Virus record (IMG/VR): IMGVR_UViG_3300037360_000157
Span: 1 to 34,533 of that record
DNA length: 34,533 nt
Strand: one strand, 5' to 3'
Source: a virus
Positions 13,748 to 34,533 of the stretch are shown piece by piece. Numbering within the stretch: the first letter of the stretch is position 1; the number at the start of each line of letters is the position of its first letter. The notes under the pieces are model-generated. The model worked only from the letters and a program-made list of their open reading frames with translations, had not been told where the DNA came from and searched no databases. Both the position numbers and the translations under genes were made by a program.

Positions 13748-13951
13748 GTGAATAAGAAAAAGCTGACGTTGGTGATCGAGAGGACGAAGGACAATCGGGC
13801 CTTCTGGATCACGGTCAAGGGACAAAAGAACGACATCATCATGGAATACGTGACGAGCGTCGTTGAGGAACCGCGGTCGATACTGTCCGATGCAAGACGA
13901 ATATCCGATGCAAGGCGAATGACGGAGAAGAGAAATGACAACAATCGATAA
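13748..13951 (+). CDS. Small basic hypothetical protein
   Basis: 67 aa from GTG at 13748, chosen because GGAGGAG stands 6 nt upstream (13734-13741 region) and MNKKKLTLVIERTKD is a sensible N-terminus; the longer frame from 13682 has no such site. The N-terminal half reads as beta strands (KLTLVIERTKDNRAFWITVK), the C-terminal half as an Arg-rich helix. An 18-bp near-identical tandem repeat (13886-13902, 13904-13920) encodes SDARRI/SDARRM. The gene overlaps the next one by 17 bp, so they are one transcription unit opposed to the virion operon. Function unknown; a small nucleic-acid-binding or accessory protein is possible. Confidence 0.6.
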   Translation: MNKKKLTLVIERTKDNRAFWITVKGQKNDIIMEYVTSVVEEPRSILSDARRISDARRMTEKRNDNNR

Positions 13952-14300
13952 GGTCTCGTGGTTCACCGGCGTCATCGTGGCGCTGGCAATGGCAAGCACT
14001 CATTGTGGTGGCGCCGTGGAGAATGCCACCGATGCCCAACGAGGTGTTGAGGACGATAGGGACGCAGCTGATTCGCAGGATGCGAATCACGTACACCGAT
14101 GCTCGTACGTGTACGATGCCACTTATTCCAGTTCTGGATTGTTATCGTTTGCCGGCGTGGGTGATTGTGATGTCACACCCCCTAGGGGTCAGTGCACTCC
14201 GTTCGTACCAAGCCTGGCCGCTGACGGTGGCGCTGAGTTTGTGTGTCTATCTGACGGACCGGGGAGGTTTGACGATGCGGCGACGACCTTTCGATTCTAG
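13935..14300 (+). CDS. Putative exported cysteine-containing protein
   Basis: 121 aa, ATG at 13935 with GGAGAAG 8 nt upstream. Residues 1-24 look like a signal sequence: short polar start with Lys6, hydrophobic core WFTGVIVALAMA, then STHC. Cys24 is where a lipoprotein cysteine would be, but the preceding STH does not fit a normal lipobox, so type I cleavage after AMA is equally possible. Four more cysteines (56, 78, 87, 104) suggest disulphides outside the cytoplasm. Such small exported phage proteins include superinfection-exclusion and outer spanin-like proteins; neither family is recognised. The plus-strand setting within virion genes makes it a moron-type cassette candidate. Confidence 0.65.
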   Translation: MTTIDKVSWFTGVIVALAMASTHCGGAVENATDAQRGVEDDRDAADSQDANHVHRCSYVYDATYSSSGLLSFAGVGDCDVTPPRGQCTPFVPSLAADGGAEFVCLSDGPGRFDDAATTFRF

Positions 14301-26903: not shown

Positions 26904-26932
26904 ATTGTACCATGTACTGTCAGCAATGTTCA
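26904..26932 (-). promoter_or_regulatory. Candidate promoter for the portal-packaging-head operon
   Basis: On the minus strand TGAACA (26932-26927) and TACAAT (26909-26904) have a 17-nt spacer, and TG stands one base upstream of the -10 (TGGTACAAT), an extended -10 form. It lies about 20 bp before the start at 26882 and inside the last codons of the upstream gene. Confidence 0.45.
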
Positions 26933-27558
26933 CCGACCACGACCCTTTTGCACCAGGGTCCGTCCGTGGACACGACAACGAATGGACACGCTGGAAACGT
27001 TCCCATCGCAGGCAAGTACCTTGAAAACCACAGGTCCTTGTCAGTCGATAGAAGGACGTGTACGTCGATGATGTTGTATGATACGATGATTCCAGGCGCT
27101 GATTCATAGCAATGAACGTGCCACACTGACTTTCCTGACGTTTCGATGAGCTTCCTTAACTTTTCAAACTCGTTGTTGTGACCCATGACCGCGTTGTTAC
27201 AAGCGAATGCCTGAGGCATCGTCATACACTTGTTGCAGATGTGAATGCAGCTCGCGGTGTTTGCATACCTGATGTTCCTCGGCGATGACACCTTGAGTTG
27301 AACGATGTGATGCTCTGACGTGAAGTCCGCACCGTCAAAGTCCTCTTGCTTTCCTTCGTTGTTCGTGAAGTCCTCATTGAATTGTTTCTTCAATTCTGCA
27401 ACAACAAATTCATAGTTCCTCTTTGAAACGTTTGCATGTGCATTCGTATCAAACGGTTTGAATTCTGCTCTGACCTTTTCAGAACAGTGATGACACAGAC
27501 CGATCTCTTTCGCCAGCTTCAGAAGCTTTGCACGTTGCCATTCCGTTATTGTACTCAT
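26920..27558 (-). CDS. Cysteine/histidine-rich protein, HNH endonuclease-like
   Basis: 212 aa from ATG at 27558 (MSTITEWQRAKLLKLAKE); a TTG start at 27615 would add a hydrophobic stretch but has no ribosome-binding site. CHHC (22-25) and CxxxCxxC (104-111) could bind one zinc, and SEHHIVQLKV (81-90) resembles the E/D-H-I-x-P-L motif of HNH nucleases, followed by RNIRYANTASC as the Asn region. The final His is unclear. A homing nuclease or DNA-processing enzyme is possible; the tRNA-like element next door would be a usual neighbour. A non-catalytic zinc protein is the alternative. Confidence 0.5.
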   Translation of the reverse strand: MSTITEWQRAKLLKLAKEIGLCHHCSEKVRAEFKPFDTNAHANVSKRNYEFVVAELKKQFNEDFTNNEGKQEDFDGADFTSEHHIVQLKVSSPRNIRYANTASCIHICNKCMTMPQAFACNNAVMGHNNEFEKLRKLIETSGKSVWHVHCYESAPGIIVSYNIIDVHVLLSTDKDLWFSRYLPAMGTFPACPFVVVSTDGPWCKRVVVGEHC

Positions 27559-27629
27559 AATACTATGTAGTAGTATGAATGCAATCGTTGCCCAACATCG
27601 TTGAACAAATTTCAAAAAATTGTGTAGAA

Positions 27630-27717
27630 TGGAGCGCCCTTCAGGAATCGAACCTGAACGATCTGACCGACTTGAACGGAGGAGAAAAAGTCTATCTGAT
27701 CGAAACCAATTGAGCGC
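27630..27717 (-). tRNA. tRNA-like element, non-canonical
   Basis: The minus strand carries a perfect T arm (TCAGG, loop TTCGATT, CCTGA) followed by AGGGCGC, a discriminator T and encoded CCA. The 5' end GCGCTCA pairs with AGGGCGC at six of seven positions, completing an acceptor stem. At 88 nt it has the size of a class II tRNA. Between the stems the fold is odd: a hairpin TGGT-TTCG-ATCA in the D-arm place and a stem GATAGACTT/AAGTCGGTC (one mismatch) with a 14-nt loop where the anticodon arm should be. No anticodon can be assigned. It begins with the base after the stop of the upstream gene. It may be a degenerate tRNA, a tRNA-mimic, or an attachment-type remnant. Confidence 0.5.
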
Positions 27718-27966
27718 TTATGTTGATTTCCTAGACCTTTGAGAAAGCGCTAAAGCCTCGAGATATGCTTCACGAACGTTCTTGTTCCTTTCGCCTATGG
27801 TTTCAGCCAACGCGGCTCCATACGCTGTTCGTGGGCTTTCTGTGGGCTTCAATCGCCTGTTCCTATGCAGTTGCCAGGCATGAATGCATGCAGACACGAT
27901 GCATGCGATTGAACTAGCAACGTTGATGATAGATTGTGGATCGATGTGGTTCATTTGATCAATCAC
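27718..27966 (-). CDS. Small single-pass membrane protein
   Basis: 82 aa from GTG at 27966 in a GTGA overlap with the upstream stop; ATG at 27954 is an alternative. Residues 12-31 (SIINVASSIACIVSACIHAW) are hydrophobic and followed by HRNRR, so one membrane helix with a basic cytoplasmic side is likely. The C-terminal half is a charged helix (GAALAETIGERNKNVREAYL). This layout fits holins with one helix and inner spanin-like proteins. Placement after the fibre and before the tRNA-like element gives no firm support for lysis. Confidence 0.6.
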   Translation of the reverse strand: MIDQMNHIDPQSIINVASSIACIVSACIHAWQLHRNRRLKPTESPRTAYGAALAETIGERNKNVREAYLEALALSQRSRKST

Positions 27967-28633: not shown

Positions 28634-30796
28634 TTATTGAACCGTCAATGCCAATCCAACCGCAGGTGCAGTGCTCACCAACGTGCCACCAGCAGGAAAC
28701 GTTGCAGGCATTGCTCCGGCTGAGAGTCCCGTGACCTTCCACGCAATCGGCGTCGTGGTCGTACCTGCTATCAACCAATTCGGAAGGTACTTGTTCGGAC
28801 CCGTGATTGCTTGTATGGTGCTGGCCGTCGTTCCCAGGGAATCAACCTTGAGCACGATCCAATACAGACCAGGCGGGCCTATCGTATTTGTGGACGAATT
28901 TATCGTCTTCATTCCTGACGTTGTACCAAGAGCAACGGCACCGCCACCCGTGTATTCACTCGACGCCGCGAACGTTTTTGGGTATCCAGTGAATGATAGA
29001 TCGTCATAGATCGCCATTCTGACGTTCGATCCTGCGGTCGCCGGTGCGTTCGTTTGAAACAAATAGACACTTGTGCAGAACACCGTGGTGTCCGTGATAA
29101 AGATCGGCATGGCAAACATGTCGCCGGCAACGCACGTGTAGGGCGTTCCTGCCCACGATGTGTATTCTGGAAGGTAGATCTGAGGTGAAGAGGTATTGAC
29201 GCTTGTCTTGACGATGGGACGACGATCGGCCAAAACAAACGGTATTGGCGAGACCGACGTCTCACACGAACCCATCGGTTGTCTATCGATCGCTTCCTCG
29301 CATAGCGATAACGCGGCCTGAACGATTGCCTGAGCACACCGTTGATAACCGAGGTTGTTTGGATGCAGACCATCCCAAGCGAAGTATGTGTAGATGTTCG
29401 TTGGAAAGCTAGCGTCCGTCTCGCCATGAAACAGCGCTGCGTCAAAGTCAGCGACTTGAACCATCGATCCAAACTGTGCGACTGCATTTGCAATCGCGGT
29501 GTTCCAACCCGCAACGTCAGCCTGAGCAGCAACGTGGTTTGCAGGCGTTGCTCCAGAGAAGTCCGTGTTTGCCCCGTAATATCCACATGCATAACCGTTA
29601 AGCGTACGTTGAATAGAATATTTGATGCTCGTTGATGAATTGTTTGCAGTCTTGCTCAACGTGATGGACGTGGTGCTACCAACAGCTGATATCGTCGTTC
29701 CTGATTGAATCGCATTTTGAGAATCGAGCTCAACGATCGATCCGTTGACGTCAGTGCCCGACAAAAAGTTGGCAACGTTGCTCGTGAAGGTCGTTGTTCC
29801 ATTCGTCACGCCGTCACCGAACGACATCGTGATCTGTCGACACGGCAACTGGGGCATGTTGCACACGATGACAGGCGAGGGTTTGAAGCTCTCGATCCAA
29901 CACCCATCGACGTAACACGTTGCTCCTGAGATCGTCGTGATCTTGAGGTTGATCGTTTGACCTGCGTTTGCAGCACTCAATCCGTTTGTTGCAGCGGTGA
30001 ACCTGACAGGAACTGGAGCAGCAGCGGCGGTGGCACCGGCGCCAAAGTTTGGTGTGGCGGTGTTTTGCAGGTTAGTCGTCAGACCAACGATTCCGGTCGT
30101 TCCTGTGATCGTGCCACCCCACGTAACGATCAACGTGTTTGTCGTGCCATTGAATCCGACGAGGTTGAAACAAATTGGTTCCCCTTGGTAACCCGAGGGG
30201 ATCGTGAACGTCGCCGTCGACGTACCAGACGAATCGACGGCAGTTGCTTGAATCGCAAATCCTGACGTGAAATCGGCGGCTGAAAGCGCTGAGTTCGAAA
30301 AGTTTGTTCCGTGGGCCCATTGAGCGCTGTTTGCACACAGAAACACCTGCGATGCTCTGCACCTGGAGATCAACGTGGTGTATGTATTTGTGCACACGGT
30401 CTGCAACAGCGTCTGAGCCATGCCAGTTGCCGCAAACCCGACGTCATTGACTCCCCAATGAAAGAGATAACAACCACCCGTTCGACCATACGGTGGCAAC
30501 GGTGTGGGTTTCCTGATCTCGTTCAACGCCTTTGCGTAGCCACCCTGTTGCCATCCTGCCTCCGTAAGAACGGCGCCATTGCGACCGTGATTGATGACGT
30601 TTTCTTTTGGAATCCCAAGCGCTCTAGCGGCCAAGAATTGCATTGAATAATCATCTGACCACTGAACGATGTAATTTCCTCCCTGAGGATTCGTACCGTT
30701 GATTGAATTCTGAAAGTACGAATGTCCAAAGCACTCCAACCCATTGATCGGTACCGGATGAACCAGAGGCATCGATGTTGTCAGCGTCGTTGGCAT
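28634..30796 (-). CDS. SGNH/GDSL-hydrolase virion protein
   Basis: 720 aa, ATG in a TAATG overlap with the fibre stop. The SGNH blocks are visible: I CFGHSYF with Ser26 (GDS replaced by GHS), II NHGRNG (69-74), III HWGVND (113-118, Gly115 and Asn117) and V WDGLHPN (474-480, Asp475 and His478). Blocks III and V are 360 residues apart, with two beta domains inserted (about 180-305, and 320-400), so the catalytic domain is split. Residues 500-720 form another beta domain. Such enzymes on phage fibres remove acyl or acetyl groups from surface polysaccharides. Position after the main fibre makes it a receptor-processing tail protein. Confidence 0.8.
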   Translation of the reverse strand: MPTTLTTSMPLVHPVPINGLECFGHSYFQNSINGTNPQGGNYIVQWSDDYSMQFLAARALGIPKENVINHGRNGAVLTEAGWQQGGYAKALNEIRKPTPLPPYGRTGGCYLFHWGVNDVGFAATGMAQTLLQTVCTNTYTTLISRCRASQVFLCANSAQWAHGTNFSNSALSAADFTSGFAIQATAVDSSGTSTATFTIPSGYQGEPICFNLVGFNGTTNTLIVTWGGTITGTTGIVGLTTNLQNTATPNFGAGATAAAAPVPVRFTAATNGLSAANAGQTINLKITTISGATCYVDGCWIESFKPSPVIVCNMPQLPCRQITMSFGDGVTNGTTTFTSNVANFLSGTDVNGSIVELDSQNAIQSGTTISAVGSTTSITLSKTANNSSTSIKYSIQRTLNGYACGYYGANTDFSGATPANHVAAQADVAGWNTAIANAVAQFGSMVQVADFDAALFHGETDASFPTNIYTYFAWDGLHPNNLGYQRCAQAIVQAALSLCEEAIDRQPMGSCETSVSPIPFVLADRRPIVKTSVNTSSPQIYLPEYTSWAGTPYTCVAGDMFAMPIFITDTTVFCTSVYLFQTNAPATAGSNVRMAIYDDLSFTGYPKTFAASSEYTGGGAVALGTTSGMKTINSSTNTIGPPGLYWIVLKVDSLGTTASTIQAITGPNKYLPNWLIAGTTTTPIAWKVTGLSAGAMPATFPAGGTLVSTAPAVGLALTVQ

Positions 30797-33700
30797 TAGT
30801 TGATCACGGTCACAACGACCGTTCCTCCCGCGGCACTTGAGATCGCGGTGATTTGACCAAGTGCGACATCATCAAAGTACGTTCCCCCTGTCCCATCGTT
30901 TGCCGCAGAGCCTGCTGACAATGCGAGATGGTACGCAGTCGAAGTCGGTGTCTGACCGTTGAACGCAAGGTAGATCTTCGTCGTTCCCGTGTTCTGGATT
31001 CTGATCTGCTTACACTCCCCGCCGGCATAGATGCCAACTGGTGTCGTGCCGACGACATACTGGTACGGAGTAGATGCAACGAATCCGATCACGCTGTGCG
31101 TCTTTGTCACCGGATTCGGAATGATCTGTATCAACATGTCCAGCATCAACTGAATGTTCGTGTTCAGCAGATCGAGCATGTCGTATTCGCGTTTGTTAGC
31201 GAAGAAGAGTTCGTTGTTTCCGCCCGTCGTCGCCGCCGATATCGCTAATGGCAGGCTCGTGCCGGGCACCGTTCCAGCGATCGTCAGAGGTGGCGTGTTC
31301 GGCGAGACCTGAACGACGATCGACTGATCAGCCGCCGTCGCAACCTGACCGGATGTCTTAATTGCAGCACCGATTGAAAGTGGCTCCCCGCCGTAGCCGG
31401 ATGCGACCTCGACCCGATTTTGGTTGGCCACATAGACGATGTCCACAACCAGCGACGCCGACGTTGTCACGTTTCCTAGTGTGTTGACTCCAATCACTCC
31501 GTACAGCGTCGTGTAGGCGTTTGGAATCCTCGTGTTGACGAACGCCAACAACGTGAATTGCGCGGTGTTAGGCGGCGCAACCTCGAGCGAAACGGCCGTC
31601 TGCGTGAGCGAGATCTTGTAGACGAGCGATTGCGTGTTCAGAAAGCCCGTTGGTAGCGTCAACACCTGACTCAACGTCTCAGACGTCGCCGACGATCCAG
31701 CGGTCACGAGCCTGATCTGGTTCGTCGCCAGTGTACTGTCGATCTGAACCGTTATTTGCGTTTGCGGCGACGAGTAGCTGTCTTGCAGACCAAAGTACGC
31801 ATACTGATTTGCGGCCGTCGCGAGGCCTGGAACGTACTGCGCCGTGACGAACAATTGCATGGGCGCGTAGTCAAGAGATCGTGCGACAACGGTGTTGTTG
31901 CCACCGCTGACGGTTCCAGACACAATCAAATTCGACGAAGCAACAGAAACCAATCCACTCGTTGCCGCAATGAACCAATTGCTGACGCTTCCGGGGTTCG
32001 TCAATGTCCCCCCTGGGTACCCACTGACGAGTGTCAAAGACGTGTTGCTTTGAACCGAAGCGACTTGCGTCAAGTAGAAGTCAAAATCACTCGACAACTT
32101 GACGTATTGATATTGTTGAACGGTCGATAGGAATGATGTCCCTGTTCCGGTGACGGACGTTGACCCGTTCGTGAATGTGCACGTTCCGATCGACGACTCC
32201 AACGACGATCCGAAGAACGAATCTCGGAACCCGAGCTCGTCTGTCAGCACCGTGCCACGGGTCATTAAGTTCCCACTAGGATCTGAGTACAACGTTGTTC
32301 CAATCGTCGGAACGACTTCAATTGGATTAGGATAATAATCCTGCGTCGTCAGAAGCAAATTGACTGAACCGCTTACACCGACAGTTCCTTGTTGCGTAAC
32401 GAACACAGATCCAGAAACTGCTTGTGGGCCAGAAGTGTAGACGCTCGTTCCACCCGTTGGTGGCGTCGTTGAAACAGATCCAGAAACGTTGATCGTCGCC
32501 GGCCAGTTCGTGATCGCCGCAGAAACTGATCCTGAAATTCCCTGCAAACCTGAAGTGAATACGTTCACAGACCCAGTCACAGATTGTGGACCGGATGTAT
32601 ACGAAGGGCCAGTGATTGACGTCAACGTTCCGCTGACACCGATGATAGCAGGCCAATTCGTTATCGTTGCGCCAACAGATCCTGACACTGCCTGAGGACC
32701 GGATGTGTAGACACTGGTTCCGCCGATGGGAAGCGTCGAGACCGTGCCTGAGATGCCCTGAAGACCGCTCGTGAAGATGTTAACCGATCCTGAGATTCCC
32801 TGCAAACCTGATGTGTAGACGTTCGTTCCACCTGCTTGAGGAAGGTTGCTGATCGAAACAGATCCAGAGACGCCGACGGTCGCTGGCCAGTTCGTAATAG
32901 CGACAGATCCAGACACGTTCTGAGGACCGGATGTGTAGACGCTCGTTCCACCCGTTGGTGGCGTCGTTGAAACAGATCCAGAAACGTTGATCGTCGCCGG
33001 CCAGTTCGTAAGAGCGACTGATCCTGAGATTCCCTGCAATCCAGAGGTGTAGACGTTCGTTCCACCAGATTGTCCAGTCGTCGCAACGGTTCCTGAAATA
33101 CCGATGACCGCCGGCCAATTCGTGATCGCCGCGGAAACTGAACCGCTTATTCCTTGCAAACCTGAGGTGTAGACGTTAACAGATCCAGTCACCGCTTGCG
33201 GTCCGGATGTGTATGAAGATCCAGGCGTTGACGTCAACGTACCAGAAACGCCGATGATTGCCGGCCAATTCGTGAGTGCAACCGACCCAGATACAGCCTG
33301 AATTCCGGAGGTGTACACACTGGTCCCACCGATGGGAAGCGTCGAGACCGTGCCTGAGATGCCCTGAGGGCCTGATGTGTAGACGTTCACGGACCCGGTC
33401 ACAGCTTGAGGACCTGATGTGTATGAAGGACCAGATATTGATGTCAACGTACCAGAAACGCCGATGATTGCCGGCCAATTCGTTATCGTCGTTGGCTGGT
33501 TCACAGGCAAGTTGTTGATGTTGACTGCACCGCTGACCAACTGAGCGCCGCTGGTGTAGACGTTGAGACCACCCGTGAAAGGCGTCGTTGAAACCGTTCC
33601 TGAAATGCCGATGACCGCAGGCCAATTCGTGAGTGCAACCGACCCTGAGATTCCCTGCAATCCAGAGGTGTAGACGTTCGTTGGACCAGGCGTTGAAACG

Positions 33701-34365
33701 AACGTGCCGCTGACGCCGATCACAGCAGGCCAATTCGTTATTGTCGTTGATTGATTGACTGGAAAGTTCGCTACGCTGACGCTTCCGCTGATTCCCTGAA
33801 GGCCACTCGTGTAGACGTTCGTTCCACCCGCTTGAGGAAAGTTGCTGATCGAAACAGATCCAGAGACGCCGACGGTCGCTGGCCAATTCGTCAACGTAAC
33901 GGGCTGGTTCGCTGGAAAGTTCGCTACGCTGACGCTTCCGCTGATTCCCTGAAGACCTGAGGTGTAGACGTTCGCTGCAGGAATGCTTGACACCACGATC
34001 GATCCAGACACCGCCTGAATTCCGGAGGTGTACACACTGGTCCCGCCGATTGGAAGCGTCGAGACCGTGCCAGAGACCGACTGAGGGCCGCTGGTGAAGA
34101 CGTTGACCGATCCGCTGATTCCTTGAGGACCTGAGGTGAATGCGTTGACGTCTCCGTAGATGAATTGAATTGGAGGAAAGTTTGTCACCGCAACGTTTGG
34201 CAAAAACGTTCCGCTGATTACGGCGACCGTCGACAGCGACCCTGTCACCCACAACGCTCCGCTGGAGTCTAGATTGAGTGGATGAGGACTGGGATTTCCA
34301 TTAACATCCAACGTCATTGCATGAGAAACGTTGTCAATCAACGATGGTGGTAGCAAATTCGCCAT
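30796..34365 (-). CDS. Long tail fibre with YTSG/VSGSV repeats
   Basis: 1189 aa, start at 34365 (MANLLPPSLIDNVSHAMTLD) without a clear ribosome-binding site. Residues about 60-660 contain roughly two dozen units of the type NVYTSGLQGISGSV alternating with ITNWPAVIGVSGTV, one pair per about 35-45 residues; many units are nearly identical at DNA level. This is a flexible or triple-stranded beta shaft. Residues about 690-1189 are non-repetitive and include LGFRDSFFGSSLESSIGTCTF and a beta domain ending IRIQNTGTTKIYLAFNGQTP, then GTVVVTVIN, probably the receptor-binding head. It is the first gene of the minus operon and is followed by the coupled SGNH protein. Confidence 0.8.
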   Translation of the reverse strand: MANLLPPSLIDNVSHAMTLDVNGNPSPHPLNLDSSGALWVTGSLSTVAVISGTFLPNVAVTNFPPIQFIYGDVNAFTSGPQGISGSVNVFTSGPQSVSGTVSTLPIGGTSVYTSGIQAVSGSIVVSSIPAANVYTSGLQGISGSVSVANFPANQPVTLTNWPATVGVSGSVSISNFPQAGGTNVYTSGLQGISGSVSVANFPVNQSTTITNWPAVIGVSGTFVSTPGPTNVYTSGLQGISGSVALTNWPAVIGISGTVSTTPFTGGLNVYTSGAQLVSGAVNINNLPVNQPTTITNWPAIIGVSGTLTSISGPSYTSGPQAVTGSVNVYTSGPQGISGTVSTLPIGGTSVYTSGIQAVSGSVALTNWPAIIGVSGTLTSTPGSSYTSGPQAVTGSVNVYTSGLQGISGSVSAAITNWPAVIGISGTVATTGQSGGTNVYTSGLQGISGSVALTNWPATINVSGSVSTTPPTGGTSVYTSGPQNVSGSVAITNWPATVGVSGSVSISNLPQAGGTNVYTSGLQGISGSVNIFTSGLQGISGTVSTLPIGGTSVYTSGPQAVSGSVGATITNWPAIIGVSGTLTSITGPSYTSGPQSVTGSVNVFTSGLQGISGSVSAAITNWPATINVSGSVSTTPPTGGTSVYTSGPQAVSGSVFVTQQGTVGVSGSVNLLLTTQDYYPNPIEVVPTIGTTLYSDPSGNLMTRGTVLTDELGFRDSFFGSSLESSIGTCTFTNGSTSVTGTGTSFLSTVQQYQYVKLSSDFDFYLTQVASVQSNTSLTLVSGYPGGTLTNPGSVSNWFIAATSGLVSVASSNLIVSGTVSGGNNTVVARSLDYAPMQLFVTAQYVPGLATAANQYAYFGLQDSYSSPQTQITVQIDSTLATNQIRLVTAGSSATSETLSQVLTLPTGFLNTQSLVYKISLTQTAVSLEVAPPNTAQFTLLAFVNTRIPNAYTTLYGVIGVNTLGNVTTSASLVVDIVYVANQNRVEVASGYGGEPLSIGAAIKTSGQVATAADQSIVVQVSPNTPPLTIAGTVPGTSLPLAISAATTGGNNELFFANKREYDMLDLLNTNIQLMLDMLIQIIPNPVTKTHSVIGFVASTPYQYVVGTTPVGIYAGGECKQIRIQNTGTTKIYLAFNGQTPTSTAYHLALSAGSAANDGTGGTYFDDVALGQITAISSAAGGTVVVTVIN

Positions 34366-34438: not shown

Positions 34439-34444
34439 TTTTCA
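34419..34444 (-). repeat. 26-bp perfect inverted repeat, right-hand arm (partner 924-949)
   Basis: Exact reverse complement of 924-949. Its last six bases already belong to the terminal direct repeat, so on the circle the arm spans the contig junction (34419-34438 joined to 1-6). Together the arms bracket about 0.92 kb of non-coding DNA. Confidence 0.85.
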
Positions 34445-34533
34445 GTCGATTCAGGTTAGATTCTTCATCGACGTTCCAGAACGTTGTCCTGGATCATTTG
34501 ATGGGCGGAGACGATGGTGTTCCTGGACTTGGC
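34439..34533. repeat. Terminal direct repeat, right copy
   Basis: Identical to bases 1-95. It indicates completeness of the genome; see left copy. Confidence 0.95.

Follow-up and report, generated by a model that had tools for sequence, protein, structure and literature searches.

The window analysed here is the whole of virus record IMGVR_UViG_3300037360_000157 (34,533 bases), which carries a 95-base direct terminal repeat at positions 1-95 and 34439-34533, so that the genome (34.4 kb) is probably complete. Its genes, which include a T4-type terminase and a P22-like portal, encode mostly structural proteins and lie nearly all on the minus strand; no recognisable gene for a replication, integrase or lysis enzyme was found among the ORFs tested in the window. 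At 30796-34365 (minus strand) lies the gene of a protein of 1189 aa in which near-repeats of a YTSG..GISGSV type unit are numerous, and the DNA repeats of this gene show 79-97% alignment to one another. An ORF on the opposite, plus strand (13935-14300), with a lipoprotein-like signal (LAMASTHCGG), is located inside the structural operon.

Most of a 159-nt intergenic gap in the late operon of the phage is occupied by an 88-nt tRNA-like RNA with an encoded CCA (27630-27717, minus strand, as are all parts of the element given below). It is preceded by an 82-aa ORF with one apparent membrane segment (holin-like; 27718-27966, minus strand) that has no family match above the curated cut-off, and whose TAA stop directly adjoins the first nucleotide of the element, as the preliminary description of this DNA had noted. 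The gene that follows encodes a Cys/His-rich protein with CxxC motifs and likewise has no family match (26920-27615, minus strand; 231 aa, with the likely start ATG at 27558). ARAGORN calls neither a tRNA nor a tmRNA at the element, and no tRNA gene elsewhere in the phage genome; at gathering score, Rfam has no match at the element either. That it is a real tRNA-like element, as first described, is borne out by two covariance models of the tRNA-like domain (TLD) of tmRNA built without it, R1 (22.0 bits, E 0.0012) and R2 (24.5 bits, E 0.00028), for each of which it is the only significant match in the window; the R2 match spans exactly 27717-27630.

Predicted fold of the tRNA-like RNA

The minimum-energy fold of the element consists, in order, of an acceptor stem, a 9-nt unpaired stretch, a long interrupted stem with a 14-nt loop and a T arm, and is more stable than 200 out of 200 dinucleotide shuffles (z -3.05). 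The 5' strand of the acceptor stem (GCGCUC, 27712-27717) pairs with positions 27634-27639 (probabilities 0.99-1.0) within a 3' segment (27630-27639) made of GGGCGC, the discriminator U (27633) and CCA (27630-27632). Together with the T arm (27640-27658), whose 6-bp stem UUCAGG/CCUGAA closes a 7-nt loop UUCGAUU, the 6-bp acceptor forms a 12-bp stack with a U discriminator before CCA, as in tRNA and tmRNA; the intact acceptor stem, T arm and encoded CCA of the initial account are thus all present in the predicted fold. An alternative seventh acceptor pair, A-U, would join the final A of the TAA stop to the discriminator, and on the predicted fold the acceptor is best read as 6 bp rather than 7.

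The region between acceptor and T arm calls for revision. A D arm replaced by a UUCG-capped hairpin (UGGU-UUCG-AUCA) had been proposed, but a fold combining acceptor, D hairpin, 9-bp stem and T arm reaches -21.5 kcal/mol, 5.6 kcal/mol worse than the -27.1 kcal/mol of the fold without a D stem. The 14-nt loop UUUCUCCUCCGUUC (27674-27687) stands as described, whereas the 9-bp stem below it is prolonged by the pairing of CGAUC with GAUCG (each pair probability at least 0.83) to a stem of 13 bp with two 1x1 mismatches (27659-27702; pair probabilities 0.83-1.0), which replaces the anticodon arm. At 27700-27707, without a D stem, lies GGUUUCGA, the tmRNA D-loop motif; it begins 4 nt past the 6-bp acceptor, the spacing in TLD-only tmRNAs being 3-5 nt. 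The absence of a D stem combined with a long stem at the anticodon position is the plan of the tmRNA TLD, and the GG-UUUCGA loop between the acceptor and the long stem (P2) is arranged as in the phage TLD-only tmRNA class described below. What is directly supported for the element is this predicted shape, together with its position, its motif and its CCA.

TLD-only tmRNAs in phages

TLD-only tmRNA is already a known kind through mycobacteriophage DS6A, whose published example is little more than a TLD, and strong inhibition of tmRNA has been reported for a molecule similar to a TLD-only RNA, both in chargeable and in non-chargeable form, with titration of SmpB as a possible cause (Hudson, Lau and Williams 2014, PMC4131195; PMC11915505). 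By its published description, the DS6A RNA is like the window element a phage gene with the tRNA-like domain of tmRNA and no tag reading frame. A survey of phages for TLD-only tmRNA was not found in the literature searched, which covered few subscription papers or preprints.

A scan of IMG/VR for the loop motif within 25-55 nt of a T arm plus CCA returned 99 stretches and, beyond the phage's own, 97 loci. Sixty-six of these 97 pattern loci hold compact RNAs, 69-98 nt long, whose GG...UCC-A acceptor is paired, corresponding to 53 distinct sequences; the GG...UCC acceptor was required by the later selection of members, the G3-U70 pair itself not being demanded by the scan, and the loci left out by the selection resemble ordinary tRNAs, one full tmRNA, or chance. 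Because the scan pattern demanded GGTTTCGA and CCA, the invariance of these two elements is partly by construction, and the class counts, resting on a GGUUUCGA-motif scan, refer to a set outside which any compact GGAUUCGAC forms would fall. Examples from the loci numbered L009-L105 are L094:10221-10301 (minus strand) and L034:1365-1446 (plus strand). RF00023 matches most of 18 loci tested end to end, at 49-75 bits, the message region being missing entirely; in the member records searched whole, no further tmRNA passed the cut-off, and an SmpB gene was found in none of the 47 member records searched. ARAGORN reports no class members in the loci scanned with it, and members often adjoin tRNA genes.

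Across 56 sequences, the class structure pairs in 95.7% of cells, and covariation amounts to 0.745, where shuffles give 0.155 and slid controls 0.08-0.11; the alignment behind the value of 0.745 was fitted to the structure, a sequence-only alignment gives a similar result, and all covariation figures describe phage class members, the window element being known only from near-identical copies. The first three acceptor pairs, including G3-U70, are invariant, while pair 4-69 occurs as GC, CG, AU, GU and UA. G3-U70, A73 and an A before the T arm are each found in 56 of the 56 members, as is GGUUUCGA, which the search pattern itself required, and P2 opens with a C-G, U-A or G-U pair. These sequence comparisons show the phage TLD-only class to be a genuine RNA. 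Alanine identity resides in G3-U70, so its invariance points to selection for alanine charging; its retention while pair 4-69 covaries suggests RNAs that are charged and act on the ribosome, and not merely passive SmpB sponges. Many members share, between the P2 strands, a tip of the form UAAA-RCC-loop-GG (alignment A5), in place of which four (L092, L051, L098 and L023) have a plain hairpin; this tip may be a separate functional motif.

Class RNAs are also carried by cultured phages, namely the Streptomyces phages Shaeky, LuckySocke, BRock and pSt2308, Stenotrophomonas virus Jojan60 and Pontimonas phage phiPsal1, in whose genomes the six copies are either unannotated or overlapped by a 'hypothetical protein'; for GiJojo, blastn alone gives an alignment, over 75-83% of the query. 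The phiPsal1 RNA (L366:1501-1582, plus strand) starts immediately behind a small ORF, with the capsid gene following shortly after, and its 3' end reads UCCACUA, not UCCACCA. The copy of Streptomyces phage Alone3 (L369:479-558, plus strand), which scores 41 bits, has a damaged loop motif and one broken T-stem pair and looks like a TLD in decay, its relative LuckySocke having an intact one at the same place. SM1, Rb1, CcrPW and S-CAM1 carry permuted full tmRNAs in place of the TLD-only form.

The same pattern applied to prokaryote genomes gave no member in 118 stretches among the matches listed, against 66 of the 97 viral loci, and R2 run with strict filters on 1,192 genomes of three phyla found a single clear TLD-only RNA, with phage-like surroundings, besides a fragment of doubtful status. 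The class therefore does occur in bacterial genomes, but rarely. A TLD-only tmRNA scoring 67 bits lies at L378:1501-1580 (match on the minus strand), in a genome that shares its phylum with Bacillus methanolicus; its neighbours are tRNAs, an HNH-like ORF and a phage-type sigma-like ORF, and RF00023 at gathering score is silent there.

Placement and possible roles of the window element

With the TLD models, class members score 57-88 bits, ordinary tRNAs about 13-35 and the window element 22-24.5; because ordinary tRNAs reach about 35 bits, the R1 and R2 matches do not make the element a member. A tRNA model, R3, made from 42 tRNAs, gives it 19.0 bits with a misplaced acceptor, tRNAs mostly scoring 27-80 and TLDs 23-38, and the three scores together put the element between the tRNA and TLD classes. 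It is too diverged for a firm class assignment and is an outlier to the TLD-only class; its sequence appears to lean slightly to TLD over tRNA. The loop motif favours TLD, GGTTTCGA within the first 30 nt being found in 3 of 775 distinct ordinary tRNAs in the fetched loci, all three from motif-selected loci, in a comparison chosen after the element sequence had been seen.

RF00005 has no match at the element, and the best family in a permissive Rfam search is tRNA-Sec (RF01852; 17.7 bits, below the gathering score of 47), from which the element differs in a fold without a canonical D or variable arm. An ordinary tRNA was rejected on the absence of a D stem and of a 7-nt anticodon loop, on the silence of ARAGORN and RF00005 and on the misplaced acceptor under R3; a full tmRNA was rejected on the absence of an RF00023 match and because the element has only a 14-nt loop inside, where a full tmRNA carries a tag reading frame and pseudoknots. 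Homologues of the element were found only in 99.8% identical contigs, with zero changes within 150 bases around it. Scans with the portal, terminase and capsid proteins recovered only 99-100% identical contigs and no diverged relatives reaching the element region, and a terminase alignment with T5-like phages added, beyond near-identical contigs, only distant fragments. Blastn of the 1.9-kb surroundings against cultured phages found no match; a pattern search with the acceptor stem returned chance matches, a matching T arm being present only in the phage's own contig.

Like the 53 class members, the window element has no D stem, a GGUUUCGA loop, a long stem and a T arm, and its length falls within their span of about 70-98 nt; unlike them, it lacks the GGG...UCC-A acceptor and the invariant A before the T arm (part of the 3-nt linker of the class), and scores 24.5 bits instead of 57-88. 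Its acceptor reads GCG...CGC-U (G1-C72, C2-G71, G3-C70, U73), with neither the G3-U70 nor the A73 that clear class members keep, and it is without the class-type P2 opening pair after GGUUUCGA, the P2 pairing being shifted into the CGA of the D-loop motif.

The four roles initially offered for the element were a tRNA mimic, a processing signal in the polycistronic mRNA, an anticodon-nuclease decoy and a decayed tRNA. The decoy founders on the absence of a 7-nt anticodon loop; the mimic fares best, but needs sharpening to a mimic of the tRNA-like domain of tmRNA. We tentatively read the element as a diverged, tag-less tmRNA mimic of the TLD type without alanine identity, a reading that is possible and far from assured. 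In its favour are the missing D stem, the P2-like long stem and the 12-bp acceptor/T stack, the existence of a large phage class of the same design, and the phiPsal1 member, which likewise begins directly after an ORF in a structural operon; against it stand three missing features (G3-U70, A73 and the A that precedes the T arm) and the blindness of RF00023 to the element.

Under this TLD-type reading, the RNA would be excised from the late transcript and would present an acceptor/T stack with CCA, while the unpaired GGUUUCGA loop would dock its GG on the T loop at the elbow and the long stem would be placed where tmRNA has its P2 helix. So shaped, the RNA might contact SmpB or the ribosome and damp trans-translation. 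With alanine identity lost (GCG...CGC-U, not GGG...UCC-A), it would work uncharged or be charged with an amino acid other than alanine; G1-C72, C2-G71, G3-C70 and U73 make up the set that bacterial glycyl-tRNA synthetase (GlyRS) recognises, so that glycine charging is possible judging from the acceptor.

The main rival, somewhat unlikely, is that the element is a decayed or highly derived phage tRNA gene, non-decoding, with a glycine-type acceptor, a lost D arm and a rearranged anticodon arm. Phage tRNA relics are common, a T arm, CCA and 12-bp stack would be found in any tRNA, R2 (24.5 bits) and R3 (19.0 bits) score the element similarly, and in Alone3 a copy of the TLD class is itself decaying; however, neither a stem of 13 bp nor an acceptor paired without fault would be expected to persist under decay (z -3.05), the D-type loop fits the tmRNA motif and not a tRNA D loop, and the phage is without other tRNA genes. 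The location directly after a stop codon, between co-directional genes, would suit a tRNA-shaped processing signal acting in cis, where RNase P together with tRNA 3' processing would separate the holin-like gene from the next one in the polycistronic late mRNA and the RNA would have no further role, and RNase P needs as a minimal substrate no more than an acceptor/T stack that ends in CCA; such cutting needs neither a long specific stem nor an elbow motif, and we consider this explanation improbable. Any tRNA-like gene in an operon would be cut likewise, so processing does not preclude a role in trans. A phage attachment site, at which the 3' part of the element would copy the 3' end of a host tRNA or tmRNA gene, is very improbable and was rejected because no integrase was found among the ORFs tested: attP identity blocks usually run from T arm to CCA, and integration often takes place at ssrA 3' ends, but the paired 5' acceptor strand and the long stem are superfluous for attP.

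Throughout bacteria, stalled ribosomes are rescued by trans-translation, and the DS6A RNA hinted at an answer to the question of whether phages combat this rescue or turn it to their own use. With 53 distinct members, cultured carriers, an alanine pair that is never lost and no SmpB in 47 records, the question becomes directly testable, and the size of the class is a more useful result than the window element, which is at best a new version of a known kind. Phage tag-less tmRNAs may interfere with host ribosome rescue. The broader proposal that many phage lineages use tag-less TLDs with selected alanine identity as a common means against, or instead of, host ribosome rescue, and that the window RNA is a version without this identity, possibly charged with glycine, uncharged or differently charged, is unlikely to hold in its entirety. 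As the exception to the class, the window element would reveal if charging is required.

Full tmRNA (ssrA), standard or permuted, shares the plan of its tRNA-like domain with the window element and differs in its tag reading frame and pseudoknots, the halves being reversed in the permuted form; full tmRNAs are also found in phages such as Melnitz (PMC9004378). A tmRNA without a CDS is known from Mallomonadaceae plastids (PMC11915505): like the window element, it keeps the TLD and has no tag reading frame, but it is organellar, about 65 bp long, and the product of reductive evolution of the organelle's own rescue RNA.
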